This document shows, piece after piece, positions 12,282-32,867 of a DNA stretch of 46,623 bases (within the stretch, counting starts at the first letter, position 1; every line of letters starts with the position of its first letter). The stretch is from IMG/VR virus record IMGVR_UViG_3300047380_000622, positions 1 through 46,623 of that record. The stretch is one strand, 5' to 3'. The notes under the pieces were generated by a model. That model did no database searches and was not told where the DNA came from. It was given only the letters and a program-made list of their open reading frames with translations. The position numbers and the translations under genes were made by a program. The DNA comes from a virus.

Positions 12282-13097
12282 TTATCCCATTAAGTCCATG
12301 ACTGGCATTTCAAAATTCAGTCTTGACTCTTCTTCTAATCTTGTAATCTCTTCTTGTGCTTCTGTTTTAATTTGTTGTGCATCAAGTGTAACCCCGCCTG
12401 GAAGTGCGATACCTTGGAACTTAGATAGATTCTCACCCCACTGATACTTAACAAGTGCAGTTGCATACTTCTTAAGGAACATATCGTTATATATGTCTGT
12501 AAAGTCTACAGGGTCTATTTTCCTATAACATTCTATTATTATGTACTCTCCAGCAGTTAACTTTGCAGTAGTATAATCAATATACAATCTATTTTGATGA
12601 GAGTTGTATCGTATTGGTATCTGTCCGACTAACATATCGTTTATTAATTTTATATGTTGTTGAACTTGTGAGTAGTATAGTACACTTGTTGATGTTAAAT
12701 CCCAAAGGTCATTTAGTCTCAACTGATACTGTATGTCAAACATACTAGATGTTTGTCCTGAATTAAATGGAAATATTCTTAGTACACTTAACACATGTTC
12801 GGGTAGTGTTACATAACTTTTACTCTCTTTGTAAGATTGATTTGAGATTGCCTGTGTTCCACTTGTAGAACCAGTAAGAGTGTCATCTGTTTTAAATGAA
12901 TCAATTTCTTCTTGTGTGATTTGGTGTTTTAAATACGTCTTAATGGAACCATTGTAATGATATTCATGAAAGTATTGTAATGCCTCATCAATTCTGTCAT
13001 CTAACTGGTCATCATCAACATTAATCTCTAATACTGGAGCTCCAAGTTTCCTCTTTATATAGTCTTTTAAGGTACTTTTTGATGTTGGTTCTGCCAT
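12282..13097 (-). CDS. gp13: neck protein gp13
   Basis: Head-completion neck protein, 271 residues (T4: 309). The start (TLKDYIKRKLGAPVLEINVD with DDQLDDRIDEALQYFHEYHY) and the middle region (TAGEYIIIECYRKIDPVDFT, then YATALVKYQWGENLSKFQG) are typical of the family in marine T4-like phages. It opens the conserved neck-to-capsid block and carries its own late promoter at 13129-13136, with an AGGA ribosome site before the ATG. Confidence 0.94.
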   Translation of the reverse strand: MAEPTSKSTLKDYIKRKLGAPVLEINVDDDQLDDRIDEALQYFHEYHYNGSIKTYLKHQITQEEIDSFKTDDTLTGSTSGTQAISNQSYKESKSYVTLPEHVLSVLRIFPFNSGQTSSMFDIQYQLRLNDLWDLTSTSVLYYSQVQQHIKLINDMLVGQIPIRYNSHQNRLYIDYTTAKLTAGEYIIIECYRKIDPVDFTDIYNDMFLKKYATALVKYQWGENLSKFQGIALPGGVTLDAQQIKTEAQEEITRLEEESRLNFEMPVMDLMG

Positions 13098-13128: not shown

Positions 13129-13136
13129 TATTTATA
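13129..13136 (-). promoter_or_regulatory. late promoter box for gp13 neck operon
   Basis: A perfect TATAAATA on the minus strand lies in the 51-base gap upstream of gp13. The predicted start near 13123 gives a leader of about 26 bases containing an AGGA ribosome site. It separates the neck block from the accessory cassette upstream. Confidence 0.78.
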
Positions 13137-13148
13137 TGAATTTAGAAC

Positions 13149-13409
13149 CTATTCTTGGAAGTAAGTCTTAGATTGTAGACGGTCTATCTTCTCGTCTATC
13201 CTGTTCATAGTAGCGATTAGTCTTTCAGACACAATTTCCACTTCTTCACGAGTAACATATTCTTTTGCTAACTCTTCTCTTGTCTTATTGACAAGTATAT
13301 CTATTCTCTTCTGTTCGGATAAAAGGTTTCTTATTAGGAATCCTAAAGGTGCTAACACGAATGTTATCATAAGGTTCCAAAGAAGGTGAGTGTCTATTAC
13401 TATTTCCAT
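13149..13409 (-). CDS. small one-TM, coiled-coil protein of unknown function
   Basis: An 86-residue protein with one hydrophobic segment at residues 9-28 (LLWNLMITFVLAPLGFLIRN), followed by a highly charged helix (EQKRIDILVNKTREELAKEY and further, to RIDEKIDRLQSK) predicted to be a coiled coil. No signal-peptide cleavage motif is visible. Similar small membrane-anchored coiled coils occur in phages as holin/antiholin-like or membrane-associated factors, but nothing here proves lysis. The promoter box TCTAAATA (13415-13422) ends six bases from the ATG, with no ribosome site in between, so the mRNA could be leaderless. Confidence 0.75.
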   Translation of the reverse strand: MEIVIDTHLLWNLMITFVLAPLGFLIRNLLSEQKRIDILVNKTREELAKEYVTREEVEIVSERLIATMNRIDEKIDRLQSKTYFQE

Positions 13410-13426: not shown

Positions 13427-14131
13427 CTAGTCGGTTGAAAGGTCTCCATTGGGATGAACATTATAAACAAATTCATCATCATTGTAGTTTGGTATGTCAC
13501 CACTATGACCACCTTCAGCAGGATATCTCATTTCTATATTAAATGATATTGAATATCTTTCTTTATCAGTTACATTTGGTTCTACCATATGCATAAGACC
13601 ACTTGGAAAAAGTATGAGTTTACCACCTTTGGGTTCAAATCCTTTACTCGTTGCAGTTCTAGGTGAGTTTGGAAAATCTGCGACAACTTTAGGATGTGTA
13701 TCAATCATTTCAATATGACCTTCATCTCCATCTGCTTTTATATAAAACACACCACTATACCAACAACCATTATGCAAGTGTGGTTTGTTCCATGCAAGAT
13801 GGTCGTTAATATTTGCCCAAGAATTTCCTATATGCATATTTGCTTTGTTACGGTCTAATCCATGGAAAGGCCATATCTCATCATAAAACATAGTTTGTAT
13901 TCTATTCATTAGTTTTTGGAATGCAGGATTAGATTCACAACCATCATGTGATTGCCAACCAGTGTATGCATTAGAAAGTCTTCTACCTTCGGGGTCTTTT
14001 CTTCTCATACCATCCATAGTATCAGTAAGAAGGTCTAAGTAATTTTGGTCTACACCTCTATTTGAATCTAAACTAGGGTCTAGTAAATCTCTCTCAAAGA
14101 TATATGTTGGGAAAAGTAATCTAACTGCCAT
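13427..14131 (-). CDS. 2OG-Fe(II) oxygenase-like protein (PF13759 / TIGR02466 type)
   Basis: A 234-residue protein with the profile of the 2OG-Fe(II) oxygenase family often found in marine phages. Starting at the ATG at 14131, candidate iron ligands are in NKPHLHNGCWYSGVFYIK (His118/His120) and SGLMHMVEP (His181), with Arg192 in ERYSISFNIEM as the probable 2-oxoglutarate anchor. The segment PKGGKLILFPSGLMHMV is the characteristic strand pair. A longer frame exists upstream but lies inside the preceding gene; the chosen ATG starts 11 bases inside the end of that gene and begins with the usual MAVRLLFPTYIFE. The substrate is unknown: free metabolite, nucleic acid or protein are all possible. 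It is the last enzyme of the accessory cassette, before a small membrane protein. Confidence 0.8.
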   Translation of the reverse strand: MAVRLLFPTYIFERDLLDPSLDSNRGVDQNYLDLLTDTMDGMRRKDPEGRRLSNAYTGWQSHDGCESNPAFQKLMNRIQTMFYDEIWPFHGLDRNKANMHIGNSWANINDHLAWNKPHLHNGCWYSGVFYIKADGDEGHIEMIDTHPKVVADFPNSPRTATSKGFEPKGGKLILFPSGLMHMVEPNVTDKERYSISFNIEMRYPAEGGHSGDIPNYNDDEFVYNVHPNGDLSTD

Positions 14132-15011
14132 CGAAATCAAACTCCAATTGTGTTTCTTCTGAAACTTCTTTGTTGTGAAAAGGACACTCGGGTGGTGGAT
14201 TCTCTTCTTTATAAAGTTTGCCTTTTGGTTTCCAATAACCCTGTCTACGGTATGCACCAAACTCTTTTACACTGTCTTCGTCAAATTCTACTAACTGACT
14301 CCACTCTTGCATAGATTTATTTGTAGAAACTGTTCTATCGAACTCTGATGTTCCTGTTCCACGATTATCAATCCAAGATTTATGTGTATTGACTTGATAG
14401 GAACCAACCCACTTCTCTCTTTTATATGGTATTATCTGACAAAGAGGAGTCCCTTTTGGTATTACAAATGAGTAATCTACTTTAGGATAAAAAATTATTT
14501 GTGCATTGTCCATACCCACATTAAAGTCGTCTGTATCTATGATACCTTGCCATGTTGCAAAATGATTATTCTGAAATAGGAATGGGTCTAGGTAAAAACA
14601 AGAATAGCCAGGTGGTGTTTTGATATTCCAAGGGTTTCTCATTTTAAATGCATCCTTAATTGGTTTACCACCACCTAAGTATTCAAATGCATCTAGTGTT
14701 TGTGTTGTTGGATGACTATTAGAATTGTAACCACCCCCATGTGGGTCAAAGGTTGCGAGAGTATCACTACCTCTATCGTCTCCACCAATTCCGTTTATAA
14801 CATGTATATCTCTATTTGCCAATAGTATCCAACCACTCTTTAACCAATCATCCATGGCTGGACAGGCACGAATGGTCTGTTGAACCGTACCATTTACTAA
14901 CTCACCTGCTTTTGCTTTCTTCCACCAATCAGGTGATATAGAACTTGCAAGGACTGGTTTAAAGTCTTTGAGTGTTTCTTTATTATATGTGTGAAATTCT
15001 ATCGTTGGCAT
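14121..15011 (-). CDS. DUF6065-like protein of unknown function
   Basis: A 296-residue protein of a family seen in cyanophages and other marine T4-like phages (DUF6065-like by recall). Recognisable pieces are SPDWWKKAK near 27-35, ACPAMDDWLKSGWILLANRD at about 49-68, NPWNIKTPPGYSCFYLDPF near 127-145 and KGTPLCQIIPYKREKW near 190-205. The fold looks beta-rich with one Cys-Pro near the front and another (CPFHN) near the end. No catalytic motif can be named. The ATG at 15011 lies 29 bases inside the end of the oxygenase gene, and its own end overlaps the next oxygenase gene by 11 bases. This tight coupling with two oxygenases suggests a joint role in modifying something. Confidence 0.7.
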   Translation of the reverse strand: MPTIEFHTYNKETLKDFKPVLASSISPDWWKKAKAGELVNGTVQQTIRACPAMDDWLKSGWILLANRDIHVINGIGGDDRGSDTLATFDPHGGGYNSNSHPTTQTLDAFEYLGGGKPIKDAFKMRNPWNIKTPPGYSCFYLDPFLFQNNHFATWQGIIDTDDFNVGMDNAQIIFYPKVDYSFVIPKGTPLCQIIPYKREKWVGSYQVNTHKSWIDNRGTGTSEFDRTVSTNKSMQEWSQLVEFDEDSVKEFGAYRRQGYWKPKGKLYKEENPPPECPFHNKEVSEETQLEFDFDGS

Positions 15012-15702
15012 CAAAAAACTCTGATTGGTCTACTAATCTTACTTCGTCCCCTCTCAAGACTAGTGACCTTCTGTCTATGTATCTTGCTGATGGAGTAGGT
15101 GCATCTGCACCATGAGGTATTCTACCATCAAACATTATTAATCTATTTGGTTTAAATTCTATTTCTGCAATCTGATGGTTGTCAATATGTTCTTGTCTTC
15201 CATCTAAACCTTGTTGCATCTTATTATATAGTCGTAACTTACCACCCCAATTTTTGTTCCAAAACTTATTGGTGTAGTATAGGAATGAAAGGTTCCAATC
15301 ATCTTCTTCTTGACAATCTGCATGGGTAGTTCCCTGCAATCCTTGTGTTTGTGAGTTTAAACCCATGTACTGAAATCGTTGCCACTTGAATCCAAATTCT
15401 GTTTGCAATCTTCTATTCATATAGTATGGAAAAAATGTATGAAGTTTATCCATATCCTTTTCCAACTCCATATCATTTCTATAGAATGTTGCACCCCAAA
15501 AACTATGATGTGGTAATCCTGTTGGACTTCCACTAGAAACTTGATTTGTTTTAGACCAAAGATTATGTCCAACTATATAGTCATCAAAATGGTGATGAAG
15601 TTCAGTTGCAAGATAGTTATCTAAAACATAAACATCTTTAAGTGGTAAGTCTTCTATTTTAAAGGGTTCATCTATATAGACAACCTTTATATCGTCATAC
15701 AT
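14983..15702 (-). CDS. 2OG-Fe(II) oxygenase (prolyl 4-hydroxylase-like)
   Basis: A 239-residue iron- and 2-oxoglutarate-dependent dioxygenase. The classical HxD...H triad is visible: His127 and Asp129 in GTTHADCQEEDDW, and His197 in LIMFDGRIPHGADAP. A basic residue for 2-oxoglutarate follows at Arg207 or Arg211/212 (SARYIDRRSLVLR). The double-strand core DWNLSFLYYTNKFWNKNWGG then GKLRLYN is typical of prolyl-4-hydroxylase-type domains. Known family roles include protein prolyl hydroxylation, nucleobase oxidation and small-molecule hydroxylation; the phage substrate is unknown. It starts three bases after the preceding small gene and overlaps the DUF6065-like gene, forming one translational unit with it. 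Confidence 0.87.
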   Translation of the reverse strand: MYDDIKVVYIDEPFKIEDLPLKDVYVLDNYLATELHHHFDDYIVGHNLWSKTNQVSSGSPTGLPHHSFWGATFYRNDMELEKDMDKLHTFFPYYMNRRLQTEFGFKWQRFQYMGLNSQTQGLQGTTHADCQEEDDWNLSFLYYTNKFWNKNWGGKLRLYNKMQQGLDGRQEHIDNHQIAEIEFKPNRLIMFDGRIPHGADAPTPSARYIDRRSLVLRGDEVRLVDQSEFFDANDRISHI

Positions 15703-15705
15703 GAC

Positions 15706-16263
15706 TTATCTTTCGTGGTCGGGTAATAAAGAAGCTTTTGGTAGTTGTACAACATACTCTTGTAATGGTTTAAGATAGTCTTCTCTAGTAGCGAAAATTT
15801 CATTTACAAGTTGGTCATATATTACATATTGTGAATCTGCAAATTCTAAAATTCTTCTTGCATTTGACCTATATGGATGGTTAGAACCCTCTCTACCAGC
15901 AAATGTTGCTTCTGATAAATCATCAAATCCATAGTTATCAGTAAACTCTGAAATGTTATTTTTAACTTCACCAATCAAGTCTTGTACATACTGATTGTTT
16001 AATGTGGTTCCAGCTGGTGGTTCAGAGTTATCTATGTAGTTTTCTATAATATCTTTTTCAGCACTAGTTATATCTCTTTTAATTTGGTCATCAAAACAGA
16101 GATTGTCATCCCATTTTTCAATTACAACTTCTATATCATCATATACAAGAACATCAAAATCGAATCCTAGTTCGGGTTGGTCTGTATTATCAAATTCATA
16201 TTGTAAACCATTTGGTTTTCTTACTATTAGTTTTTGGTCTTCTGTGTAAATTAGTGCGTTCAT
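15706..16263 (-). CDS. hypothetical phage protein, possible fibre assembly factor
   Basis: A 185-residue acidic protein, not assigned to a function. The first part (MNALIYTEDQKLIVRKPNGL, about residues 1-65) is beta-like and acidic. The second half is helical, with SNHPYRSNARRILEFADSQY near 130-150 followed by EIFATREDYLKPLQEYVVQLP. Proteins with this 'REGS..PYR..A' helix and a C-terminal 'VxxLP' occur beside fibre genes in marine phages and somewhat resemble fibre-assembly helpers, but this is only an impression. The ATG at 16263 is preferred over the upstream TTG because a GAGGT ribosome site lies about 11 bases before it, within the TTG-initiated extension. It sits between the glycosyltransferase and the oxygenases. 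Confidence 0.75.
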   Translation of the reverse strand: MNALIYTEDQKLIVRKPNGLQYEFDNTDQPELGFDFDVLVYDDIEVVIEKWDDNLCFDDQIKRDITSAEKDIIENYIDNSEPPAGTTLNNQYVQDLIGEVKNNISEFTDNYGFDDLSEATFAGREGSNHPYRSNARRILEFADSQYVIYDQLVNEIFATREDYLKPLQEYVVQLPKASLLPDHER

Positions 16264-16311
16264 ACTGTTATTATACCTCAATTTTATGTATTTTACAAGC
16301 GGTTTTCATTT

Positions 16312-17877
16312 TTATTTTTTCCACTTTCTATAATCTTCTAAGTTATTTATGTGACTAGAATCCATGTCATCTATCCACGGGCCTCCTCTAGTGTAGTGAA
16401 TACCAGTGTAATCCCATTTAACTTTAGGGTCGTCATATCCCTCAACAAATATGTATTTTTCGGGTATTGGACTTATCTTATCTGTCCACTCAAACTGATG
16501 TAACTGTTTTCCAGTCCAAGTGTTGACAACTTCGGGTGTTAGTTTCTTACAATCTTCATGTCCATTATTAAAAAACATCATTGAAGACCACAACTTACAT
16601 GGATAGTCTATATTCACTTCTCCATCAAATTTAGTTTCATCATGTTTTATTTGTGGATATTTAATACATGCAACTGCATCATCAGGATTTAGATAGTAAA
16701 ACATTGGTAGTATAGACTTGTTGAAAATAAAATCATCATCTATAAATAAACTAAATCCTTCATAGTTTTCTAAGTATGGGATTAAGAATCTACTATATGT
16801 GAATTCAGTAGATTGATTTGCATATTCTCTAGTATACTCGGAAATTTTAGACTTGTCAAGAAATTTAATTTCGGGTGTAAACTTATTATAGTTTACAAAT
16901 CTACCACCACCGATAGACTTTTGAATAGAATGTAATAAAGATTCTTTACATATATCTTGTAGGTCGTTGTGCCTACTATCATATCCTATGTAAACATTCA
17001 AGGGTTTACCTTTAGAAAGTTTAGTAACTTTCTCACTATGTTCCCAAACATATTTTCTAAAATCTACATTACTAAAGTCTGCCTGAAATTCTATAGTACC
17101 CATTGTCCATATTGCAGAGAGACCTTTATACTTTGGTTTTCTAACTCCATTACATACTTTGTCTTGCCAATACTCTAAACATTCCTTGACTGTTATAGGT
17201 TCTACTGGTATAATATCATGAGAGTCCCACAATAATAATTCATTAGTTGGGTCTTCCATCTCTTCAAAACAACCTGAACGAACAGAGCCAGGATGTATCA
17301 TTAATTGAACTTTATCACCCGTAGATTGAGTTACACCCTGTATGGGTGCCCAGAGTCCTTCTTCCATAATACTTTGAGTTAACCAATGTGCTTTTGCACT
17401 ATGATAATACATAGAATTTAATGAAACTGGAAAATCTTCAGCTTCAAAATCACCTGTTTCTAACTCATCACCAACGTAATCTTTTATCTCTACTATTGTA
17501 TCACCACTTGGTTCTGATACTGCAAATTTTGTAGAAGGCGCTCCATGTTCATTTATAGAACCTGATGTATAAACTTTTGGGAAGAATTTATGGTATGAAT
17601 TTGCCTGAAATCTAAGACCTTGCCATCCAAGTAGTTCACCACTTTTTCTTAGTGGGTCTAAGTCTGACCATTTGCATTTTTTGAGTGGTGGCATATTCTC
17701 AAACATGTATTCAAGAATTTTAAAGAATTCCGACTCCTCATCTATATTAGATAAGTCATCTAGTGAACCCAAATGCCATTGGTCTAACTCTCTTCTTGTT
17801 CTATGAGTTAGTTCTGTAAATGACTCGGGTATCTCTAGGAATTCTTTTGTTTGCTCTAGGGTTTTTAGTTTATCCAT
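16312..17877 (-). CDS. glycosyltransferase with an N-terminal domain of unknown function
   Basis: A 521-residue two-part protein. Residues 292-505 form a GT-A-type glycosyltransferase domain: PLNVYIGYDSR (292-302) is the nucleotide-sugar binding strand, EFTYSRFLIPYL precedes the metal-binding FIDDDF (379-383), and the closing HYTRGGPW (494-501) is characteristic of this uncharacterised GT8-like group. Residues 1-240 are a separate region: AHWLTQSIMEEGLWAPIQGV, then VQLMIHPGSVRSGCFEEM and LLLWDSHDIIPV, which loosely recalls ParB-like substrate-binding folds. The gene follows a Pro/Tyr-rich repeat protein and precedes the oxygenases, so a virion protein is one plausible acceptor; DNA or host surface sugar are alternatives. 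A promoter-like ACTAAATA and an AGAGGA site lie upstream. Confidence 0.82.
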   Translation of the reverse strand: MDKLKTLEQTKEFLEIPESFTELTHRTRRELDQWHLGSLDDLSNIDEESEFFKILEYMFENMPPLKKCKWSDLDPLRKSGELLGWQGLRFQANSYHKFFPKVYTSGSINEHGAPSTKFAVSEPSGDTIVEIKDYVGDELETGDFEAEDFPVSLNSMYYHSAKAHWLTQSIMEEGLWAPIQGVTQSTGDKVQLMIHPGSVRSGCFEEMEDPTNELLLWDSHDIIPVEPITVKECLEYWQDKVCNGVRKPKYKGLSAIWTMGTIEFQADFSNVDFRKYVWEHSEKVTKLSKGKPLNVYIGYDSRHNDLQDICKESLLHSIQKSIGGGRFVNYNKFTPEIKFLDKSKISEYTREYANQSTEFTYSRFLIPYLENYEGFSLFIDDDFIFNKSILPMFYYLNPDDAVACIKYPQIKHDETKFDGEVNIDYPCKLWSSMMFFNNGHEDCKKLTPEVVNTWTGKQLHQFEWTDKISPIPEKYIFVEGYDDPKVKWDYTGIHYTRGGPWIDDMDSSHINNLEDYRKWKK

Positions 17878-17895
17878 AATATATCCTCTTACACT

Positions 17896-17903
17896 TATTT
17901 AGT
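17896..17903 (-). promoter_or_regulatory. possible late promoter variant for the accessory cassette
   Basis: ACTAAATA on the minus strand matches six of eight bases of TATAAATA, with the core TAAATA intact. It lies in the 28-base gap before the glycosyltransferase gene. The predicted start near 17890 leaves a short leader with an AGAGGA ribosome site before the ATG at 17877. It could start transcription of the enzyme cassette 17877-13427. Confidence 0.45.
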
Positions 17904-17905
17904 GT

Positions 17906-18988
17906 TTAAGAAGATATAGGTGTTCCAGGCCACGTTTGTGATAAATTACCATCCCATCTAATAACAGGTGTTCTACCTTGTCTAGCATATGTGCCAGGTT
18001 GTCTATTTTGGTATGTAAACGGTGTTTGACCCTGTCTAGCATATGTGCCAGGTTGTCTATTTTGGTATGTAAACGGTGTTTGACCCTGTCTAGCATATGT
18101 GCCAGGTTGTCTATTCTGATAAGTGAATGGAGTCTGACCTTGTCTAGCATATGTGCCAGGTTGTCTATTTTGGTATGTAAACGGTGTTTGTGCATTAACT
18201 GGATTCTGATAGATACTAGGTTGTCTATTCTGATAAGTGAATGGAGTTTGTGCATTAACTGGATTCTGATAGGTACTAGGTTGTCTATTTTGGTATGTGA
18301 ACGGTGTTCTACCTTGTCTTGCATAGGTGTTAGGTTGTCTATTCTGATAAGTGAATGGAGTCTGTCCTTGTCTTGCATAGGTGTTAGGTTGTCTGTTCTG
18401 ATATGTAAACGGTGTTTGACCCTGTCTTGCATATGTTCCAGGCTGTCTGTTCTGATATGTAAATGGTGTTCTACCAGTTCTTTGATATGTACCAGGCTGT
18501 CTGTTACTATATGTAAATGGTACTCTGTAACTTACAGGGTTTCTGTATGTAAATGGTGACCTGTTACTATATGTAAATGGTACTCTGTAACTTACAGGGT
18601 TTCTGTATGTAAATGGTGACCTGTTCTGATAAGTGAACGGTAACTGATAACCTACTGGGTTTCTGTATGTAAATGGAGACCTTCTCTGATAAGTGAATGG
18701 TTGTCTAGCATTAGCAATATATGGAACCCTGTATGTAAATGGATTTCTATATGTAAATGGTTGTCTAGCATTCGCAATATATGGTACACGATAGGTAAAT
18801 GGGTTTCTGTATGTAAATGGTTGTCTAGCATTCGCAATATATGGAACCCTGTATGTAAATGGGTTTCTGTATGTAAAAGGAGACCTTCCATTAGCGATAT
18901 ATGGCACACGATAGGTAAACGGCACCCTATATGTAAATGGTTGCCTAGCGTTTCCTATATTAGGTACTTGATAATTTCCTATTGCCAT
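17906..18988 (-). CDS. Pro/Tyr/Arg-rich repeat protein A (18-residue period)
   Basis: A 360-residue protein that is almost entirely tandem repeat (residues 16-341) between a short N-terminus (MAIGNYQVPNIGNARQ) and a unique tail (VIRWDGNLSQTWPGTPISS). The first half uses RQPFTYRNPFTYRVPYIANA units of 20 residues; the second uses units such as PFTYQNRQPGTYARQGQT of 18 residues. Pro residues alternate at 8 and 10 spacing, with a Tyr three residues after most of them. There are no Cys residues, no membrane segment, and almost no acidic residues in the repeats, so the protein is strongly basic. The function is unknown. Position among fibre genes suggests a virion or adhesin role. An AGGA site precedes the ATG. 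Antisense and shifted frames stay open only because the repeat is stop-free. Confidence 0.82.
   Translation of the reverse strand: MAIGNYQVPNIGNARQPFTYRVPFTYRVPYIANGRSPFTYRNPFTYRVPYIANARQPFTYRNPFTYRVPYIANARQPFTYRNPFTYRVPYIANARQPFTYQRRSPFTYRNPVGYQLPFTYQNRSPFTYRNPVSYRVPFTYSNRSPFTYRNPVSYRVPFTYSNRQPGTYQRTGRTPFTYQNRQPGTYARQGQTPFTYQNRQPNTYARQGQTPFTYQNRQPNTYARQGRTPFTYQNRQPSTYQNPVNAQTPFTYQNRQPSIYQNPVNAQTPFTYQNRQPGTYARQGQTPFTYQNRQPGTYARQGQTPFTYQNRQPGTYARQGQTPFTYQNRQPGTYARQGRTPVIRWDGNLSQTWPGTPISS
17966..18943 (-). repeat. tandem coding repeats in repeat protein A
   Basis: A coding array of 54- and 60-bp units. The leftmost units are near-identical: the block beginning TCTAGCATATGTGCCAGG on the plus strand recurs at 17981, 18035, 18089 and 18143, exactly 54 bp apart. 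Further units keep the amino acids but change codons (PFTYQNRQ is written with at least two clearly different codon sets). Confidence 0.92.
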
Positions 18989-18999
18989 TTATATTTTTC

Positions 19000-19302
19000 C
19001 TATACTACTTCTATTAAAAGAGAACCGTAATGTCCTGTAAGAGTTCTCATATTATCAGGTACATCAATATCATCAGGATATGGAAGAACGTAAGACATTG
19101 AGATAATCTCGGTGATTATATTGTTTTCCACAATCTGTAAAAAGTTATTACAAGCCTCATCATCTACAGTAGTTCCTACCGTAAATTCACTTTCATTTAC
19201 ATTAACATCTACTTGATAGTCTACACCATCAATAGTTACCTCTTTTAGAGGATTACTCTTTCTATGTTTTATTCCGTTTTTTAAAAATGTTGTTGTTGCC
19301 AT
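19000..19302 (-). CDS. hypothetical small protein between repeat proteins
   Basis: A 100-residue protein of unknown function between two repeat-protein genes. It starts MATTTFLKNGIKHRKSNP, continues with a beta-rich acidic middle (EVTIDGVDYQVDVNVNESEF) and ends in GHYGSLLIEVV. It has no repeats, transmembrane segment or recognisable motif. AGGAG lies 8 bases before the ATG, and the spacing to both neighbours is short (15 and 11 bases), so it is co-expressed with them. A structural adaptor or small chaperone would fit the setting, but there is no direct evidence. Confidence 0.7.
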   Translation of the reverse strand: MATTTFLKNGIKHRKSNPLKEVTIDGVDYQVDVNVNESEFTVGTTVDDEACNNFLQIVENNIITEIISMSYVLPYPDDIDVPDNMRTLTGHYGSLLIEVV

Positions 19303-19317
19303 GTTATTTTCTCCTCA

Positions 19318-20952
19318 TTATAAAATTGCTAAACTGTTTGGTGAACCACTAGGTGCGACATAAAAAGCAGCACCATTAATGTTTACTGTTTTGTAACAGT
19401 AAGTGTCGTTGTAAGGGTAGAATGTAAACCCTGCAAAAGGATAATCATTCTGACCAGCAGGGGTTATTACTCTAAATTTTGTTGCCGGTGAAGCAGGTAA
19501 ACTAACATATGCACCACTTATATAGAACTGACCAAGGGTTACTGTACCATTTGGACTAGTGCCTGGTGTAAATATTGTAAATTGTTTCCCTGTATTCTCT
19601 GACCATGGTATAGTTGGGTTTTGAGGCCAGTTACCGTTAGTTCCCAACGGATTATTTCCTGTAGGAGCAAACGGAGATTGACCAAAGTCAAAACCATTTT
19701 TCAATGAACTATACCCATAGCCAGGGTAAATAGTAGCTGAAGTTGACGTGAATGGCCCAGCAACTAATGGGTCGGGATACGGATATGTACCTGGCGTTCT
19801 AAATGAATATGTAAATGGTGTCTGTCCATTTGCAGGATATCTTGCATTCGCAGGATATCTAGCACTGTAAGTAAAAGGTTGTCTAGCATTACTAGGTGAT
19901 TGAGCATTCGCAGGATACCTAGCATTGTAAGTAAACGGTGATTGTGCGTTACTAGGTGATTGAGCATTCGCAGGATACCTAGCATTGTAAGTAAACGGTG
20001 ATTGTGCGTTACTAGGACTCTGAGCGGCAGCAGGATACCTAGCATTGTAAGTAAACGGTGTTTGACCATTCGCAATAACTGGTTGTTGTGCAGATACTGG
20101 GTTTCTATAACCTCTTGGAGTTCTAGCATTCGCAATATACGGTTGTTGTGCAGATACTGGGTTTCTGTATCCTGCAGGTTGTCTAGCGTTAGCAATATAT
20201 GGTTGTTGACCGTTTACAGGGTTTCTATATCCAGCAGGTTGTCTAGCGTTCGCAATATATGGGGTCTGACTGTTAGCAATATAAGGATATGGTTGCTGAG
20301 CGTTAGCGATATAAGGCGTTTGACTGTTTGCAATATACGGATAAGGTTGTTGTGCAGATGCAATATAAGGCGATTGACTATTCGCAATATATGGATACGG
20401 TTGTTGTGCATTCGCAATGTAAGGACTCTGACTATTAGCAATATACGGATAAGGTTGTTGTGCAGCTGCAATATATGGTGTTTGTGCATTTACTGGATTT
20501 CTGTATGTACTAGGTTGTCTTGCATTCGCAATATAAGGTGTCTGAGCGTTACTAGGATTTCTGTATGTACTAGGTTGTCTAGCATTTGCAATGTAAGGTG
20601 TCTGACTATTTGCAATGTACGGATATGGTTGCTGAGCATTTGCAATGTAAGGACTCTGACTGTTTGCTATGTACGGATATGGTTGTTGTGCATTTGCAAT
20701 ATATGGAGTCTGACTATTAGCAATATAAGGATACGGTTGTTGAGCGTTAGCGATATAAGGAGTTTGACTATTTGCAATATACGGATACGGTTGTTGAGTA
20801 TTTTGTTGACCTGATGCATTATTCCACCCTGTAGGTGTTTTTACATATATTTGGTCTACAGCCTTCCACGTTGTAGAACCTGTTTTAACCCATCCACCTT
20901 GAGTTGAACTCCAACCCGAAGGTGTTTTTACCTTTTGTGACCCTGTTGCCAT
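19318..20952 (-). CDS. Pro/Tyr/Asn-rich repeat protein B with conserved C-terminal domain
   Basis: A 544-residue three-part protein. Residues 1-50 carry two copies of a short beta motif (KVKTPSGW and YVKTPTGW with AVDQIYVKTP). Residues 53-387 are repeats, mainly QQPYPYIANSQTPYIANA of 18 residues, then NPVNAQ/NPSNAQ-type and SPFTYNARYPANAQ-type units. The C-terminal domain begins at YPDPLVAGPF and contains PGYGYSS, SPFAPTGNNPLG, WPQNPTIPW and FTIFTPGTSPNGTV; a homologous domain ends repeat protein D (29452-30834). It is probably a virion-surface fibre or adhesin. An AAGG ribosome site is present. Pro spacing is again 8/10, as in protein A. Confidence 0.82.
   Translation of the reverse strand: MATGSQKVKTPSGWSSTQGGWVKTGSTTWKAVDQIYVKTPTGWNNASGQQNTQQPYPYIANSQTPYIANAQQPYPYIANSQTPYIANAQQPYPYIANSQSPYIANAQQPYPYIANSQTPYIANARQPSTYRNPSNAQTPYIANARQPSTYRNPVNAQTPYIAAAQQPYPYIANSQSPYIANAQQPYPYIANSQSPYIASAQQPYPYIANSQTPYIANAQQPYPYIANSQTPYIANARQPAGYRNPVNGQQPYIANARQPAGYRNPVSAQQPYIANARTPRGYRNPVSAQQPVIANGQTPFTYNARYPAAAQSPSNAQSPFTYNARYPANAQSPSNAQSPFTYNARYPANAQSPSNARQPFTYSARYPANARYPANGQTPFTYSFRTPGTYPYPDPLVAGPFTSTSATIYPGYGYSSLKNGFDFGQSPFAPTGNNPLGTNGNWPQNPTIPWSENTGKQFTIFTPGTSPNGTVTLGQFYISGAYVSLPASPATKFRVITPAGQNDYPFAGFTFYPYNDTYCYKTVNINGAAFYVAPSGSPNSLAIL
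19790..20796 (-). repeat. tandem coding repeats in repeat protein B
   Basis: The array encodes about 335 residues of 54-bp units (two PYIAN half-units) and related variants. Each PYIANA copy is spelled with different third bases (for example CCATATATTGCGAATGC against CCTTATATCGCTAACGC), while the amino acids hold. This indicates an old array kept by selection on the protein, not a recent slippage product. Confidence 0.9.
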
Positions 20953-20984: not shown

Positions 20985-21003
20985 ATACTCTTACTAAGAG
21001 TAT
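20985..21003 (-). terminator. perfect 19-bp palindrome across a fibre stop codon, weak terminator candidate
   Basis: Two 9-base arms (ATACTCTTA and TAAGAGTAT) flank one central base and span the TAG stop of the 910-residue fibre gene. On the minus strand an AT-rich stretch with five T residues follows. The stem is A/T-rich and the loop would need some opened pairs, so termination would be partial at best. Confidence 0.35.
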
Positions 21004-23726
21004 AAAACCCATAAATCACCAACTGCACCATCACTACCTGTAGGAGATGAAGTTGATTGATATATGTTTCTCACATATCCACCCGAGTTCGAAGTGTTAC
21101 TAGTTGTTATTGTTCCTAGTGTTGCATTAGAACCACTCTCATATTTAGTGTTTAAGGCAGTCTGTAGTCCGTCAACATTTGCAATTGTGTGATTATGCGA
21201 ATCGTCTGCAACTGCAGCTGAAATTGTAATATTACCAGTTCCATCAAATGATGCAGAACCTGATAAGTCTCCACCCAATGCAATTGTTCTTGCAGTAGTT
21301 AACTTAGCAGCACTAGATGCAGTAGAAGCGTTTCCTGTTAATGAACCTTCAAAAGAAGATGCCTTAACATTATGTGAACCAAATGTCCATTCGTCTTCTG
21401 ACTCGTCCCATGTCAATGAAACATTAGCAGAAGTTCCTCTTTCAACTTCAATACCTGAATCCTGTGAAGGTGTTCCAGTAACATCATTGTTAAGTGTAAT
21501 GATATTATCAGATACATTAAGCGTTGCAGTGTTAACAGTTGTTGTAGTTCCGTTAACAGTCAAATCACCTGAAAGTGTAAGGTCTGCGAATTGAACATCA
21601 CTAGTTGTTGAAACTGCCTGTCCAATACTAATTGCACCACCACTGAATCCAACACCAGTACCTGCACTTAAATGAGCACGAGTCTCAGCAGCACTTGGGC
21701 CTGTATATGTTATCACACCAGTACCACTGTTATATGCAAGTGAACCATCTCCACCTGAATCTGTTACTGATAGTTTACCTCTTACTTGTGAATCACTGAT
21801 ACCTGAATATGTGATTGCACCAGTTGAAGAGTTGTATGATAGCGAACCATCTCCAGCGTTATCTGTTACCGATATTAGTCCTCTTACTTCTGCATCTGTT
21901 CTTTCTGTGAATGAGAAAGCACCAGTTCCACTGTTGTATGATAAATCTCCACCAGCAGATAATAAACCTCTAATACTTCCATCTGATAAACCAGCAAGTG
22001 TAAGTGTTCCAGCAGTATCGTCATATGTAGAAGTGATGTTTGTTCCACCAACTACTAAACCATTTACGATATCTTCGATTTCTTCTTCAGTTTTTCCTGA
22101 AGTGTTAATTGTAAGTGTTCCAGCAGTGTCATCATATGATGTTGTTATGTTAGTACCACCAACCAATAATGCATTTACTCTGTCATCAACTCTTTCTGAA
22201 GTATGATATAAGTTACCATTTTCTGAAATATCACCAGTGTCTAGTGTTACTGAAGAACCTAATGCAGTTGAACTTCCGTTAACTGTTATTGTTGAGTTCG
22301 CAAGTTTATTATTTGCGATTGAACCTGCAAGTTTACTTTGATTGATTGAACCTGCCAACATAGCATTAGTAATACCTGATGCCTTAACCTGAACTGTATC
22401 TGTATCTATTTCTAATGAACTGTCATCAACATTTACGTTTAAAGTTACATCACCTGAAGTTCCACCACCAGTTAAACCAGTACCAGCAACTACGGATTCT
22501 ATATCACCAGCATCATTTGTGAATGATATTACACCACTAGTAGAGTTATATGATAAATCACCACTAACACTAATCGCACTTCTTGCCCTTGCAGCAGTAT
22601 GATAAAGGTTATTCGAACCTTCTGTAATTTCGTCTGAATTGTCTTTAGTAGCAACTTGAGCATCAACATATGCCTTTACGGATTGCTGTGATGGAAGTTT
22701 TGTAGCACTATCAGAGACCATGTTGTCTTCGTCTATTAATGCATTAGTAATTCTTGCATCTACTCTTGCAGATGTGTGATAAAGGTTAGTTGAACCTTCA
22801 GTGATTTCGTCTGTATTGTCTTTACCTGCAACTTGTGAGTCTACATATGCCTTTACGGATTGTTGTGAAGCAGCGTGAGATGCACTGTTTGATGTCATAT
22901 CATCTTCATCTTTAAGGTCTAAGTTTACAGTAACAGCACCTGAAGTTCCACCACCAGTTAAACCTGTTCCAGCAACTACAGATTCTATATCACCTGCATC
23001 ATTAGTAAATGATATTACACCAGTTGAACTATTGTATGATATATCACCACTTGCAGATAGAGCAGCTCTTGCTCTTGCATCTGTAAAGTAAAGATTGGAA
23101 CCTTCTGTAATTTCGTCTGTATTGTCTTTACCTGCAACTTGTGAGTCAACGTATGCTTTTACTGACTGTTGACTTGGAAGTTTAGTAGCACTATTTGATG
23201 CCATATTATCTTCATCAACTAATGCATTTGTAATTCTAGCATCTGCTCTTGCATCTGTAAAGTAAAGGTTACTTGAACCTTCTGTTATTTCATCTGTATT
23301 GTCTTTTGTTAGAATACTTGCATCAACATAAGCTTTAATTGATTGTTGTGATGCAGCGTGAGATGCACTGTTCGAAGACATATCGTCTTCGTCTTTAAGG
23401 TCGATTGCAATGTCATCTGCGTTTACAGTAATACCTGTACCAGCACCAATGTTTAATGTTGCATCACCTGAAGTTGCAGTACCAGTTAAACCAGCACCAG
23501 CATTTACTCCTGTGATATCTCCAACATTACCTGTGATTGTTAATGTGTTAGCAGAATCATCATATGATAATCCAATACCAGCACCAGCAGTTAGTAACGA
23601 AGCAACTCTATCGTCAATAGTCTCACTACCAATAGCAGCACCAGTAATAGAACCACTAGAGTCTATAACCTCTACACCACCAACGGATAGACCATTTTTA
23701 ATATTAAAATTCTTTTCTCCAGCCAT
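20994..23726 (-). CDS. large modular tail fibre protein
   Basis: A 910-residue fibre built of modules common in marine T4-like phage fibres. The N-terminus MAGEKNFNIKNGLSVGGVEV is shared with the short upstream protein (23726-23956). Residues about 30-500 repeat units containing NLYFTDARA, DEDNMASNSATKLPSQQSVK and TGLTGGGTSG, including a 162-residue (486-bp) duplication. Further on, SYNSGTG and DLTVNGTTTTVNT modules appear, then a C-terminal region ending SSPTGSDGAVGDLWVLYS. The final G-x-LW strand resembles the end of the 608-residue fibre (30836-32662). Fibres of this type bind host receptors, generally as trimers. The ATG overlaps the upstream stop (TAATG), with GGAGG before it. Confidence 0.87.
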   Translation of the reverse strand: MAGEKNFNIKNGLSVGGVEVIDSSGSITGAAIGSETIDDRVASLLTAGAGIGLSYDDSANTLTITGNVGDITGVNAGAGLTGTATSGDATLNIGAGTGITVNADDIAIDLKDEDDMSSNSASHAASQQSIKAYVDASILTKDNTDEITEGSSNLYFTDARADARITNALVDEDNMASNSATKLPSQQSVKAYVDSQVAGKDNTDEITEGSNLYFTDARARAALSASGDISYNSSTGVISFTNDAGDIESVVAGTGLTGGGTSGAVTVNLDLKDEDDMTSNSASHAASQQSVKAYVDSQVAGKDNTDEITEGSTNLYHTSARVDARITNALIDEDNMVSDSATKLPSQQSVKAYVDAQVATKDNSDEITEGSNNLYHTAARARSAISVSGDLSYNSTSGVISFTNDAGDIESVVAGTGLTGGGTSGDVTLNVNVDDSSLEIDTDTVQVKASGITNAMLAGSINQSKLAGSIANNKLANSTITVNGSSTALGSSVTLDTGDISENGNLYHTSERVDDRVNALLVGGTNITTSYDDTAGTLTINTSGKTEEEIEDIVNGLVVGGTNITSTYDDTAGTLTLAGLSDGSIRGLLSAGGDLSYNSGTGAFSFTERTDAEVRGLISVTDNAGDGSLSYNSSTGAITYSGISDSQVRGKLSVTDSGGDGSLAYNSGTGVITYTGPSAAETRAHLSAGTGVGFSGGAISIGQAVSTTSDVQFADLTLSGDLTVNGTTTTVNTATLNVSDNIITLNNDVTGTPSQDSGIEVERGTSANVSLTWDESEDEWTFGSHNVKASSFEGSLTGNASTASSAAKLTTARTIALGGDLSGSASFDGTGNITISAAVADDSHNHTIANVDGLQTALNTKYESGSNATLGTITTSNTSNSGGYVRNIYQSTSSPTGSDGAVGDLWVLYS

Positions 23727-24787: not shown

Positions 24788-24795
24788 TATTTATA
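24788..24795 (-). promoter_or_regulatory. late promoter box abutting a fibre gene ATG
   Basis: A perfect TATAAATA on the minus strand ends six bases from the A of the ATG at 24782, where T4 late transcription would begin. It directly follows a terminator, so the gene depends on this promoter, and the predicted mRNA has no leader. Confidence 0.75.
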
Positions 24796-28501: not shown

Positions 28502-29452
28502 TTAAGTCTTGTTAAACTGGCCAGTAGGAACTGACTGGTGAATTTTCTCTACAGTTCCACTATCATTGACATATATCTCATCAACCTTTTCAACACTTCC
28601 ATTATTGTTTCTGAATACACCTTTAACTTTTGCAATCGGGCCAACTGTTCTAGTTGTTGTATATGGTTGTTGGAACGTATACGATTGTTGGTATGAGTAT
28701 GGCGCCTGATAAGGTTGTCTTGTAGTACTAGGTTGTCTAGCATTAGCAATATATGGAATCGTATATGTAAACGGATGACGGTAAATAGAAGGTTGTCTAT
28801 TTTGATATATTACTGGTGTCCTTGCAGGAGTTGGAGTCGTATATGTCGCTGGATGTTGATATGTAAACGGTGTTCTACCTTGTGTAGCATATGTACTAGG
28901 TGACCTATTCTGATAAGTGAATGGACTTTGTGCATTTGCTTCATATGTAGCAGGTTGTTGTGCATTCGCAGTATATGGATAGGGTTGTTGATGGTCATAG
29001 TTTACTATAGATTGTCCATTCGCAATATACGGATAAGGTCTTTGTGCAGATGCAATAGGTCTTGTTGCTGGAGTTTGTCCAGCAAATGGATATGATACCG
29101 TTCCTTGATTTATAAATGGGTAGGGAGTTTGTGCATTCGCAGTATATGGGTAAGGCCTTTGTGCAGTTGCAATAGGTCTTGTTGCTGGAGTTTGCATATT
29201 AGCAGGATATGGAACCTGAGCAATAGCAGGGCCTCTAGCAGAGTATTGTGCATTTGCAATAAAAGGTACTTGATATTGTGCATTATTTTGTGCATTTGCA
29301 ATAATGGGTACTTGATATTGTGCATTATTTTGTACATTTACCTGTCTTATTGCAGGAGCCTGATGAGAGTAAAATCTTGTTGCAGTATACTGAACATTGA
29401 CTGGAGTTCTTGCAGGAGTTATGTAAGGTTGTTGTGTTTGTCCTATTGCCAT
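28502..29452 (-). CDS. Pro/Tyr/Gln/Asn-rich repeat protein C
   Basis: A 316-residue protein of the repeat family. Residues about 10-262 are irregular repeats: NAQYQVPIIANAQNNAQYQV, ATRPIATAQRPYPYTANAQT, SPFTYQNRSPSTYATQGRTP and a Gln-rich TYR/TYQ region (PYSYQQSYTFQQPYTTTRTV). The last 50 residues are a unique small domain (VKGVFRNNNGSVEKVDEIYV, NDSGTVEKIHQ). Its IYV strand also appears near the N-terminus of repeat protein B. The start overlaps the stop of repeat protein D (TAATG), so C and D are made together. Function is unknown; a virion-surface or fibre role is inferred from position. Confidence 0.8.
   Translation of the reverse strand: MAIGQTQQPYITPARTPVNVQYTATRFYSHQAPAIRQVNVQNNAQYQVPIIANAQNNAQYQVPFIANAQYSARGPAIAQVPYPANMQTPATRPIATAQRPYPYTANAQTPYPFINQGTVSYPFAGQTPATRPIASAQRPYPYIANGQSIVNYDHQQPYPYTANAQQPATYEANAQSPFTYQNRSPSTYATQGRTPFTYQHPATYTTPTPARTPVIYQNRQPSIYRHPFTYTIPYIANARQPSTTRQPYQAPYSYQQSYTFQQPYTTTRTVGPIAKVKGVFRNNNGSVEKVDEIYVNDSGTVEKIHQSVPTGQFNKT
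28666..29425 (-). repeat. degenerate coding repeats in repeat protein C
   Basis: Units here are less regular than in A and B. They include a near-duplicate segment at 29271-29337 (ATTGTGCATTATTTTGTGCATTTGC-like on plus, encoding NAQNNAQYQVPIIANAQ units) and two copies of ATRPIA(T/S)AQRPYPYTANAQ-type units (29037-29190). Codons differ among equivalent residues. Confidence 0.8.
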
Positions 29453-30834
29453 TAGTACATCTCCACTTTTTGTGTTCCATACGCACTAGCAACATAATAA
29501 CCTGCACCAAATACACTCACTGACCAATACCAAGTATGGTCAGCTGGAGAACCAGTAGAAGTTCCTTGTGAAGTACTCAATGTAGAGGTCTGTTCATTTG
29601 GTCGTCCAATATTGGTAGTACATTTCATATATTGAATGTCAACTCCTACATTACCTGTTGGGCCTCCACCACTCTCATCTGTCAAATCATAGTAAGTACC
29701 ACTTGGTGTTCCCTTATACACATGTCCAATATAGACTGTACCAGTTGGATTAGTGCCTGGTGTAAAGATACTGTAATGTACACCTGAATTTAATGCCCAT
29801 GGTATATTTGGATTTTGAGGCCAACCATTATTTCCACTATCTGATGGATTACCATTAGCACCCAATGGTCTACTCCCAACTGGTGCAAAAGGAGAACCGT
29901 TTCCTTTAAATCCGTTTAGAGATGAATTGTACCCATAGCCAGGATTTACAGTATCAACTCTAGAGAAAAACGGCCCTAATACAATTGGGTCGGGATAGGT
30001 ATATTCAACAGGTCTTCTTGCACCAACACTAGAAGGTTGTTGTGCAGTACTTGGGTGTTGATAAGGTTGTGCTACAATAACAGGTGTATTATACGGCTGT
30101 GAAACAGTCGTTGGATGCTGATACGGTGCAGGTTGTTGATGCTGATATGTCGTTGGATGCTGATACGGTGCAGGTTGTTGATGTTGATATGTCGTTGGAT
30201 GTCTATATGTAACCTGATAATTTCCAGTAACCTGATGGGTATATGTTGAAGGAACCCTATATGATTGTTGGAATGAGTAAGGTTCACTCCCCTGTCTTTG
30301 ATATGTAGAAGGTTGACGACCAGTATCATTGAATTCATAAGGTTGTTGACCTTGTCCAGTATATGGGTTCTGATAACTTTGTTGAAAACTATATGGTTCT
30401 TGACCCTGTCTTGCATATGTAAATGGCTGTCTCGTTGTTGCAATAACAGGAGAAGTTCCCTGTCTCTGATATGTGAAAGGGTTTCTTGTATTTGCCTGAT
30501 ATATGGAAGGTTGTCTAGCATTCGCAATATATGGAGATTGTGCATTCGCAATATAAGGATAAGGTTGTTGTGCAGACGCTTGGTAAGTATAGTTTCTTAC
30601 TGTTTGAACTATAGATGGTACTTGTCTGTTTGCATTATAAGGTGTCTGAGCGTTACTAGGTTGTCTAGCATCTGCAGGTTGTCTGTTCTGATAGGTAAAC
30701 GGTGTTTGTACATTGACAGGTCTTCTAGCAATATACTGCGCCTGTGCAATAGGTGTAGTACCTTGTGCAACCCCTTGTCCTTGGTAAGGTTGTTGGAACG
30801 AAGTTCCTATATTTACATAAATTTCATCAGACAT
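29452..30834 (-). CDS. Pro/Tyr/Gln/His-rich repeat protein D with conserved C-terminal domain
   Basis: A 460-residue protein. The N-terminus MSDEIYVNIGTSFQQPYQGQ leads into repeats (about 15-277): QTPFTYQNRQPADARQPSNA, QQPYPYIANAQSPYIANARQ, ARQGQEPYSFQQSYQNPYTG and a His-rich HPTTYQHQQPAPYQHPTTYQ block of 15-residue copies. The C-terminal domain begins YPDPIVLGPFF and shares PGYGYNSSLNGF, SPFAPVGSRPLGANG, WPQNPNIPW and YSIFTPGTNPTGTVYIG with repeat protein B. It then has its own ending with YVASAYGTQKVEMY. The ATG overlaps the preceding fibre stop region with no strong ribosome site. It is the first of four repeat-family genes in transcription order. Confidence 0.82.
   Translation of the reverse strand: MSDEIYVNIGTSFQQPYQGQGVAQGTTPIAQAQYIARRPVNVQTPFTYQNRQPADARQPSNAQTPYNANRQVPSIVQTVRNYTYQASAQQPYPYIANAQSPYIANARQPSIYQANTRNPFTYQRQGTSPVIATTRQPFTYARQGQEPYSFQQSYQNPYTGQGQQPYEFNDTGRQPSTYQRQGSEPYSFQQSYRVPSTYTHQVTGNYQVTYRHPTTYQHQQPAPYQHPTTYQHQQPAPYQHPTTVSQPYNTPVIVAQPYQHPSTAQQPSSVGARRPVEYTYPDPIVLGPFFSRVDTVNPGYGYNSSLNGFKGNGSPFAPVGSRPLGANGNPSDSGNNGWPQNPNIPWALNSGVHYSIFTPGTNPTGTVYIGHVYKGTPSGTYYDLTDESGGGPTGNVGVDIQYMKCTTNIGRPNEQTSTLSTSQGTSTGSPADHTWYWSVSVFGAGYYVASAYGTQKVEMY
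30003..30792 (-). repeat. coding repeats in repeat protein D
   Basis: The array encodes several unit types, including a 45-bp duplicated unit (TATGTCGTTGGATGCTGATACGG-like on plus at about 30103-30190) that encodes HPTTYQHQQPAPYQ. The other units are single diverged copies of PFTYQNRQ, PYPYIANA and PYSFQQSY types, which are also seen in proteins A, B and C. Confidence 0.82.
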
Positions 30835-32662: not shown

Positions 32663-32867
32663 TTATCTTTTCCACTAGTTGATTAAGCATGTCTTTTATA
32701 TCTCTCATGTCATCCTTAATATTATTTATTTCATCTACCTGTTTTTTATAGTTATCTTTTCTAAGTTTATGTAATCTCCAAGCACTAACATCAGTACTTA
32801 CTATTGCAGAAGATTCGGAATCCCTTAATAGAGATGTATGTCCTTCTACTTTATAGTACTCTGACAT
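32655..32867 (-). CDS. small coiled-coil protein coupled to the baseplate giant
   Basis: A 70-residue protein, MSEYYKVEGHTSLLRDSESS onward, whose second half is a charged helix (NNIKDDMRDIKDMLNQLVEK) with heptad-like spacing. A slightly longer frame exists upstream, but the ATG at 32867 overlaps the giant gene's stop exactly (TAATG), so it is the likely start. Proteins with an '..GH.SL.RD..S.AI...D..A' front are common small genes beside structural genes in T4-like marine phages; their role is unknown. Its end overlaps the next fibre gene by eight bases, again suggesting coupling. A small fibre or baseplate helper is plausible. Confidence 0.78.
   Translation of the reverse strand: MSEYYKVEGHTSLLRDSESSAIVSTDVSAWRLHKLRKDNYKKQVDEINNIKDDMRDIKDMLNQLVEKING

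Follow-up and report, generated by a model that had tools for sequence, protein, structure and literature searches.

Pro/Tyr repeat genes next to a glycosyltransferase and two 2-oxoglutarate oxygenases in a marine T4-like phage: a candidate virion-fibre modification cassette

Genes and proteins of the repeat-enzyme block

The window analysed here, the whole 46,623-nucleotide stretch of IMG/VR virus record IMGVR_UViG_3300047380_000622, spans 46.6 kb and contains, on its minus strand, the structural module of a T4-like myovirus. The subject of this study is a block of genes at positions 13427 to 20952, in which two repeat proteins, repA and repB, are followed by a glycosyltransferase (GT) and two 2-oxoglutarate (2OG) oxygenases, ox1 and ox2. 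In reading order the genes are repA, a 100-aa open reading frame (ORF), repB, GT, u190, ox1, d6065, ox2, an 86-aa ORF and the neck gene gp13:

19318..20952, minus strand: repA, putative repeat fibre protein (anchor, even-register repeats, variable tip)
19000..19302, minus strand: 100-aa ORF, unknown (in only 27 of 146 loci)
17906..18988, minus strand: repB, 359-aa repeat protein adjoining the GT (Pro-Pro spacing; conserved tail)
16312..17877, minus strand: GT, two-domain glycosyltransferase (motif, model, fold matches)
15706..16281, minus strand: u190, 190-aa conserved protein, function unknown (in all intact cassettes)
14983..15702, minus strand: ox1, prolyl 4-hydroxylase (P4H)-like 2OG-Fe(II) oxygenase (PF13640, E 4.6e-9)
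14121..15014, minus strand: d6065, phrog_7084 protein (phrog_7084, E 7.5e-33)
13427..14131, minus strand: ox2, 2OG-Fe(II) oxygenase of the 2OG-FeII_Oxy_5 family (PF13759, E 6.7e-19)
13149..13409, minus strand: 86-aa ORF, conserved, with a hydrophobic N-terminus (phrog_462, E 1.2e-7; in 143 of 146 loci)
12282..13097, minus strand: gp13 neck protein, downstream border (phrog_211, E 6.4e-49)

All the genes named in a first-pass annotation, including the GT and both oxygenases, were confirmed; they lie on the minus strand, with coordinates equal or close to those assigned there, and most are closely spaced or overlapping as it had described. That annotation had placed the GT directly after repA, whereas the 100-aa ORF and repB lie between them, and it had omitted u190, which separates the GT from ox1. 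The 86-aa ORF is the last gene of the block ahead of gp13. The intergenic distances from repA through the start of d6065 are 15, 11, 28 (repB to GT), 30, 3 and -32 nt. The ox2 ORF extends to 14260; from the ATG at 14131, the conserved start codon, ox2 overlaps d6065 by 11 nt; 17 nt then separate it from the 86-aa ORF and a further 51 nt lie before gp13. The overlapping arrangement of ox1, d6065 and ox2 suggests joint translation.

The spacing of proline in the repeat proteins, including repC and repD encoded further upstream, was found to be far from chance. Pro-Pro distances were even in 60 of 68 cases (88%) in repA, 44 of 45 (98%) in repB, 30 of 33 in repC and 34 of 42 in repD, against a mean even fraction of about 0.46 in shuffled sequences. 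Among 224 distinct repeat relatives, 98.2% of 8,227 Pro-Pro distances were even, chiefly 6, 8, 10 and 2; adjacent prolines made up 9 of the 8,227 and there were no poly-proline runs. In these relatives Tyr, Phe and Ala take the odd offsets, and Pro, Thr, Ile, Arg and Gln are mostly at even ones. Such a two-residue alternation would be expected of an extended beta strand with two faces, unlike the three-residue rhythm of polyproline-II or collagen. The earlier comparison of the repeats with plant extensins is thus not borne out by the sequence itself, given the strict two-residue register and the lack of poly-proline runs. The even proline spacing with Tyr/Phe on the opposite parity, and the tie between these repeats and the enzyme cassette, are new here; no published account of the repeats or the cassette was found in the literature searched, which lay largely outside subscription journals.

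The N-terminal anchor of repA is conserved (KVKTPxGWxSTQG..VDQIYVKTPTGW) and its C-terminal tip is variable, a layout that, by analogy, would be usual for a receptor-binding fibre. The 359-aa repB contains no Lys, Cys or Glu, is built of P-F/Y-x-Y-type units without Gly-X-Y, and ends in a tail, TPVIRWDGxLxQxWPxTPISS, conserved in 68 distinct sequences. A tblastn search of reference phages with repA gave no match, possibly because of low-complexity filtering. Weak Pfam matches of the repeats (RhaB_D2, SplA and others) were dismissed as composition noise, and an apparent even-proline ORF in Syn33 proved to be an antisense artefact. N-glycosylation of sequons was set aside, each repeat protein having merely three or four NxS/T sites, as was lysyl hydroxylation of the lysine-free repB. 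In one repA relative (L204:3280-4728) the repeats are followed by a Hint/intein-like domain (CFIAGTQILMADNN...VLVHN), and the fibre tip of this relative may self-cleave or splice.

The GT was found to be a fusion of an N-terminal HPG..R-type domain (residues ~1-285) with a GT8/GT24-like GT-A domain (~290-520). Its AlphaFold model had a predicted local distance difference test (pLDDT) score of 76 and a predicted template modelling (pTM) score of 0.82, with parts of the GT-A domain below pLDDT 50. Foldseek searches with this model matched LgtC, GlyE, the PBCV-1 capsid GT and UGGT at E 7e-5 to 1e-3, with modest template modelling scores of about 0.5 by target. LgtC, a lipopolysaccharide (LPS) galactosyltransferase, was the top fold match in the Protein Data Bank (PDB); the protein-glycosylating enzymes among the fold neighbours were the PBCV-1 capsid GT, GlyE, UGGT, LH3 and mimivirus R699, the activity of which has been described (PMC9546862). 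D380 and D382 of the DDD motif are invariant, so that the predicted GT-A fold is accompanied by a DxD motif. The GT-A assignment made in the first pass therefore holds at the level of the model, although the Pfam family Glyco_transf_8 (PF01501) scored 19.3 bits against a cut-off of 24.3, and a search of PDB sequences with the GT profile gave no match. The HPG..R domain, which may bind or position a substrate, also occurs in related phages as a stand-alone 274-aa protein (L414, L415, L416).

Both oxygenases were identified above the Pfam cut-offs and carry the expected 2OG oxygenase residues. In ox1, H127-x-D129, H197 and R211-x-S213 are invariant in 19 relatives; in ox2, the corresponding set is H123xH125 (HxH, not HxD), H186 and R197-x-S199, also invariant in 19 relatives. 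The second oxygenase was thus correctly recognised in the first pass. For ox1, the oxygenase assignment stands, and its proposed prolyl-4-hydroxylase character amounts to a remote similarity at the sequence level: the best PDB profile match was a prolyl 4-hydroxylase at a weak E 8e-4 over 55 residues, with all others at 0.17 and worse. For ox2, the similarity is likewise remote, and the solved structures matched are uncharacterised. The PHROG label 'DNA endonuclease V' (phrog_274) attached to ox1 and its cyanophage relatives was rejected because 2OG oxygenase motifs are present.

For d6065, the DUF6065 (PF19541) likeness that gave the gene its name is weak, with no match for the window protein and sub-threshold matches for 3 of 19 relatives (best E 0.026); the protein belongs instead to phrog_7084, which has relatives in Syn9, P-TIM40, Sf-CH8 and haloviruses. 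A family search with u190 returned nothing at a meaningful E-value.

Linkage of the enzymes to the repeats and predicted late transcription

To follow the block across related phages, loci were retrieved by searches with GT, repB, repA and d6065, a similarity-ranked and hence biased sample. The order repeat-gt-u190-ox1-d6065-ox2-orf86-gp13 was kept in every retrieved locus with contig cover, the exceptions being cuts at contig ends. Clustering at 90% identity grouped the 89 distinct GTs of these loci into 58 clusters. An even-register repeat ORF lay within 3 kb upstream of the GT in all 82 distinct GTs with enough sequence, at less than 75 nt in 78 of them, and ox1-d6065-ox2 lay downstream in 76 of 76 that could be tested. 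A second sample, chosen to avoid this bias, comprised contigs picked by the repeat DNA motif alone (40 tested, 35 of them new and 5 met before); gp13 is included in 27 of the 40, and GT and ox1 are present in every one of these. The co-occurrence proposed in the first-pass annotation as a check therefore holds within this clade. The sister clade, that of C48C1, was sampled through its 80 nearest loci, and these contained no repeats and none of the four enzymes. In the gp13 tree, all 37 cassette lineages, which belong to uncultured marine T4-like viruses, fell into one clade (support 94/95), requiring one change. The linkage is complete but of single origin, which indicates a maintained unit rather than repeated independent assembly.

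Within this marine T4-like phage, the block forms the final part of the tail-fibre 'host recognition' cluster, whose borders are VrlC and gp13; the same span, VrlC to the neck genes, has been described for pelagimyophages (PMC7029224). The structural genes of the window are gp6- and gp8-type baseplate genes, a gene for a 2223-aa phrog_358 protein, the fibre region, and then gp13 to gp23; the phrog_358 gene is inferred from its size and position to be VrlC. The window terminase is at most 54.6% identical to that of any listed reference phage, the top match being C48C1 (Kyanoviridae). The features upstream and around the block are as follows:

32867..39538, minus strand: VrlC-type 2223-aa protein, upstream border of the host recognition cluster (phrog_358, E 0)
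29452..30834, minus strand: repD, Pro/Tyr repeat protein whose C-terminal globular domain resembles that of repA (translation; Pro-Pro spacing)
28502..29452, minus strand: repC, Pro/Tyr repeat protein with a conserved C-terminal VKGVF..VEKIHQS domain (translation; Pro-Pro spacing)
24788..24794, minus strand: late promoter core of T4 type, TATAAATA, preceding the fibre genes (motif)
20994..23726, minus strand: 910-aa tail-fibre-like structural protein (phrog_697, E 2.8e-43)
13129..13135, minus strand: late promoter core TATAAATA of gp13 (motif)

The gene for the 910-aa protein contains an internal 483-nt tandem duplication of ~80% identity (window positions 22437-23402).

Twelve ATAAATA late promoter cores occur on the minus strand, and in 9 cases a gene start follows within 80 nt (P 3e-9). 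Perfect TATAAATA copies precede the fibre genes and gp13, and the motif scan of the window found none between these two. On this basis the late fibre transcription unit is predicted to take in the repeats, the GT and the oxygenases, co-transcribed with the fibre genes. A possible separate start for u190 is an imperfect copy at 16344.

Proposed modification of the fibres and its alternatives

The likeliest reading, which we consider about an even call, is that the region is a late-expressed virion-fibre modification cassette. In this reading, repA and repB, with repC and repD upstream, would be fibrous virion proteins in a strictly alternating register, one face carrying Pro, Thr, Ile, Arg and Gln and the opposite face Tyr, Phe and Ala. 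During assembly they would be modified by the GT together with one or both of the 2OG oxygenases, for example by O-glycosylation of Tyr or Thr and by side-chain hydroxylation, and the fibres would thereby be stabilised, shielded or made adhesive. The presence of the repeat proteins in the virion, the action of the enzymes on them and the residues and sugars involved are all inferred here. The modified virion 'coat' of the first-pass annotation is better read as fibres.

The main rival, unlikely in our judgement though a serious competitor, is that the GT8-like enzyme alters an O-chain or other surface glycan of the host, blocking superinfection or freeing progeny, with the oxygenases serving the same or another metabolic purpose and the repeats adjacent only through a shared cluster. 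The GT8 enzymes of the same cluster in pelagimyophages have been read as host O-chain modifiers (PMC7029224), the top PDB fold match is the LPS enzyme LgtC, and in Mosig the neighbours of a related GT are methyltransferase and sulfotransferase genes, away from the fibre cluster. That cluster is, however, described as hypervariable, whereas here the GT is fixed right after the same type of repeat gene in every testable case; it also carries an N-terminal domain missing from its relatives in reference phages, whose alignments begin near residue 270-290, and predicted transcription with the fibre genes would come late for changing a host surface. It is likewise rather improbable that the genes share a transcript and little else. 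In that case the targets of the oxygenases (perhaps also of d6065) would be small molecules, host proteins or 2-oxoglutarate levels, and the repeats would be modified by the GT at most. An influence on 2OG and nitrogen signalling has been suggested for the numerous 2OG oxygenases of cyanophages (PMC3037559), and relatives of the oxygenases and of phrog_7084 do exist without these repeats; within this clade, however, ox1, d6065 and ox2 never leave the repeat-GT block, and their overlap speaks for production together. A role in phage DNA modification appears very improbable. Pairing of an oxygenase with a GT is generally known from DNA hypermodification, TET/JBP-type oxygenases and DNA glucosyltransferases hypermodifying bases in other phages, but ox1 and ox2 fall into P4H-like or Oxy_5 families and no TET/JBP family in the Pfam scan, the GT is GT8/GT24-like, and the genes belong to the late fibre unit and not to a replication module.

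Several observations weigh against fibre modification itself. AlphaFold modelling of repA (8 sequences) gave pLDDT 41, pTM 0.30 and no usable repeat fold, although a trimeric fibre may lie beyond a single-chain model. Neither ox1 nor ox2 is close to a characterised enzyme, and any acceptors and substrates named here are candidates. The association of repeats and enzymes, confined to a single clade, represents one event kept by descent, without an independent replicate. Oxygenases of the same families stand beside tail-fibre genes in Mosig, and together with phrog_7084 in Syn9 and P-TIM40, without these repeats. PBCV-1 has an active prolyl 4-hydroxylase, yet hydroxyproline was undetectable in its purified virions (PMC7019647). 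This last result, the non-polyproline type of the repeats and the putative status of any acceptor together weaken the specific extensin logic, in which one residue would first be hydroxylated and then glycosylated; such a sequence of reactions may nevertheless occur.

In marine T4-like phages, 2OG oxygenases are among the commonest unexplained genes and are usually filed as auxiliary metabolic genes, whereas in this clade two of them and a GT are locked to one defined repetitive candidate substrate of unusually regular sequence. If fibre modification is correct, the phage would encode a pathway that hydroxylates and glycosylates its own fibres, and the fibres would represent a new kind of repetitive protein material. 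More tentatively, and with less than even confidence, this may be a new type of phage fibre whose sequence follows a strict dipeptide code and which is decorated by a dedicated, co-transcribed GT and two 2OG oxygenases, a bacterial-virus counterpart of such hydroxylated and glycosylated structural proteins as collagen, extensin and mussel foot protein.

Comparison with known systems and related modules

Among the closest parallels is mimivirus, whose collagens are modified by a hydroxylase/glucosyltransferase and additional GTs of the virus itself (PMC9546862). In both cases a virus-encoded 2OG hydroxylase and GT (L230, a lysyl hydroxylase/glucosyltransferase, and R699 in mimivirus) act, or here are predicted to act, on virus-encoded repetitive fibrous proteins. 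The mimivirus collagen differs in having Gly-X-Y and Lys acceptors, neither of which is found in repB, and the oxygenase families are other and the host eukaryotic. Virion glycosylation is also on record for mycobacteriophages, as cited in PMC10955285. The present case is set apart from both by substrate type, enzyme families and gene linkage.

PBCV-1 likewise possesses both a P4H and protein glycosyltransferases (e.g. A064R), and its capsid GT fold-matches the GT-A domain, but there the capsid is modified and not fibres; we know of no comparable gene block in PBCV-1. Plant extensins share Pro-/Tyr-rich repeats, here found near hydroxylase and GT genes, and differ from the window repeats, which have no poly-Pro runs, an even Pro spacing and a beta-type register in place of polyproline-II repeats such as SPPPP. 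The host recognition cluster of pelagimyophages and cyanomyophages occupies the same genome position and holds tail fibres, GT8-type GTs and 2OG oxygenases (PMC7029224), but it is hypervariable, and the members read lack these repeats, whereas the window clade has a fixed-order enzyme block.

The oxygenase modules without repeats have neighbours of other kinds, either heme/bilin enzymes or two Trp halogenases, and may act on fibres in general or on something else. In Mosig EXVC030M (L150, 4724-9809), the region from tail fibre to neck holds several 2OG oxygenases, a ferrochelatase, a heme oxygenase and PcyA; one gene there is annotated 'DNA endonuclease V', apparently mislabelled through phrog_274. 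In Syn9 (L285) and P-TIM40 (L411), the tail-fibre genes are followed by the two tryptophan halogenases and then by a phrog_7084 protein and 2OG oxygenases, an arrangement that resembles a second type of fibre-side modification module. The fibre region of the sister-clade phage C48C1 (L148:20961-31052) contains a 3364-aa ORF of Tyr-Thr-Arg repeats (TYTRTRNSSYVRSRVSAY...), which are Pro-poor, Tyr-rich and of a different type. Full-length or near-full GT relatives were also found on contigs of metagenome-assembled genomes binned as Sphingobacteriales and Flavobacteriaceae (L286, L287), and this binning gives a weak hint of Bacteroidota hosts.

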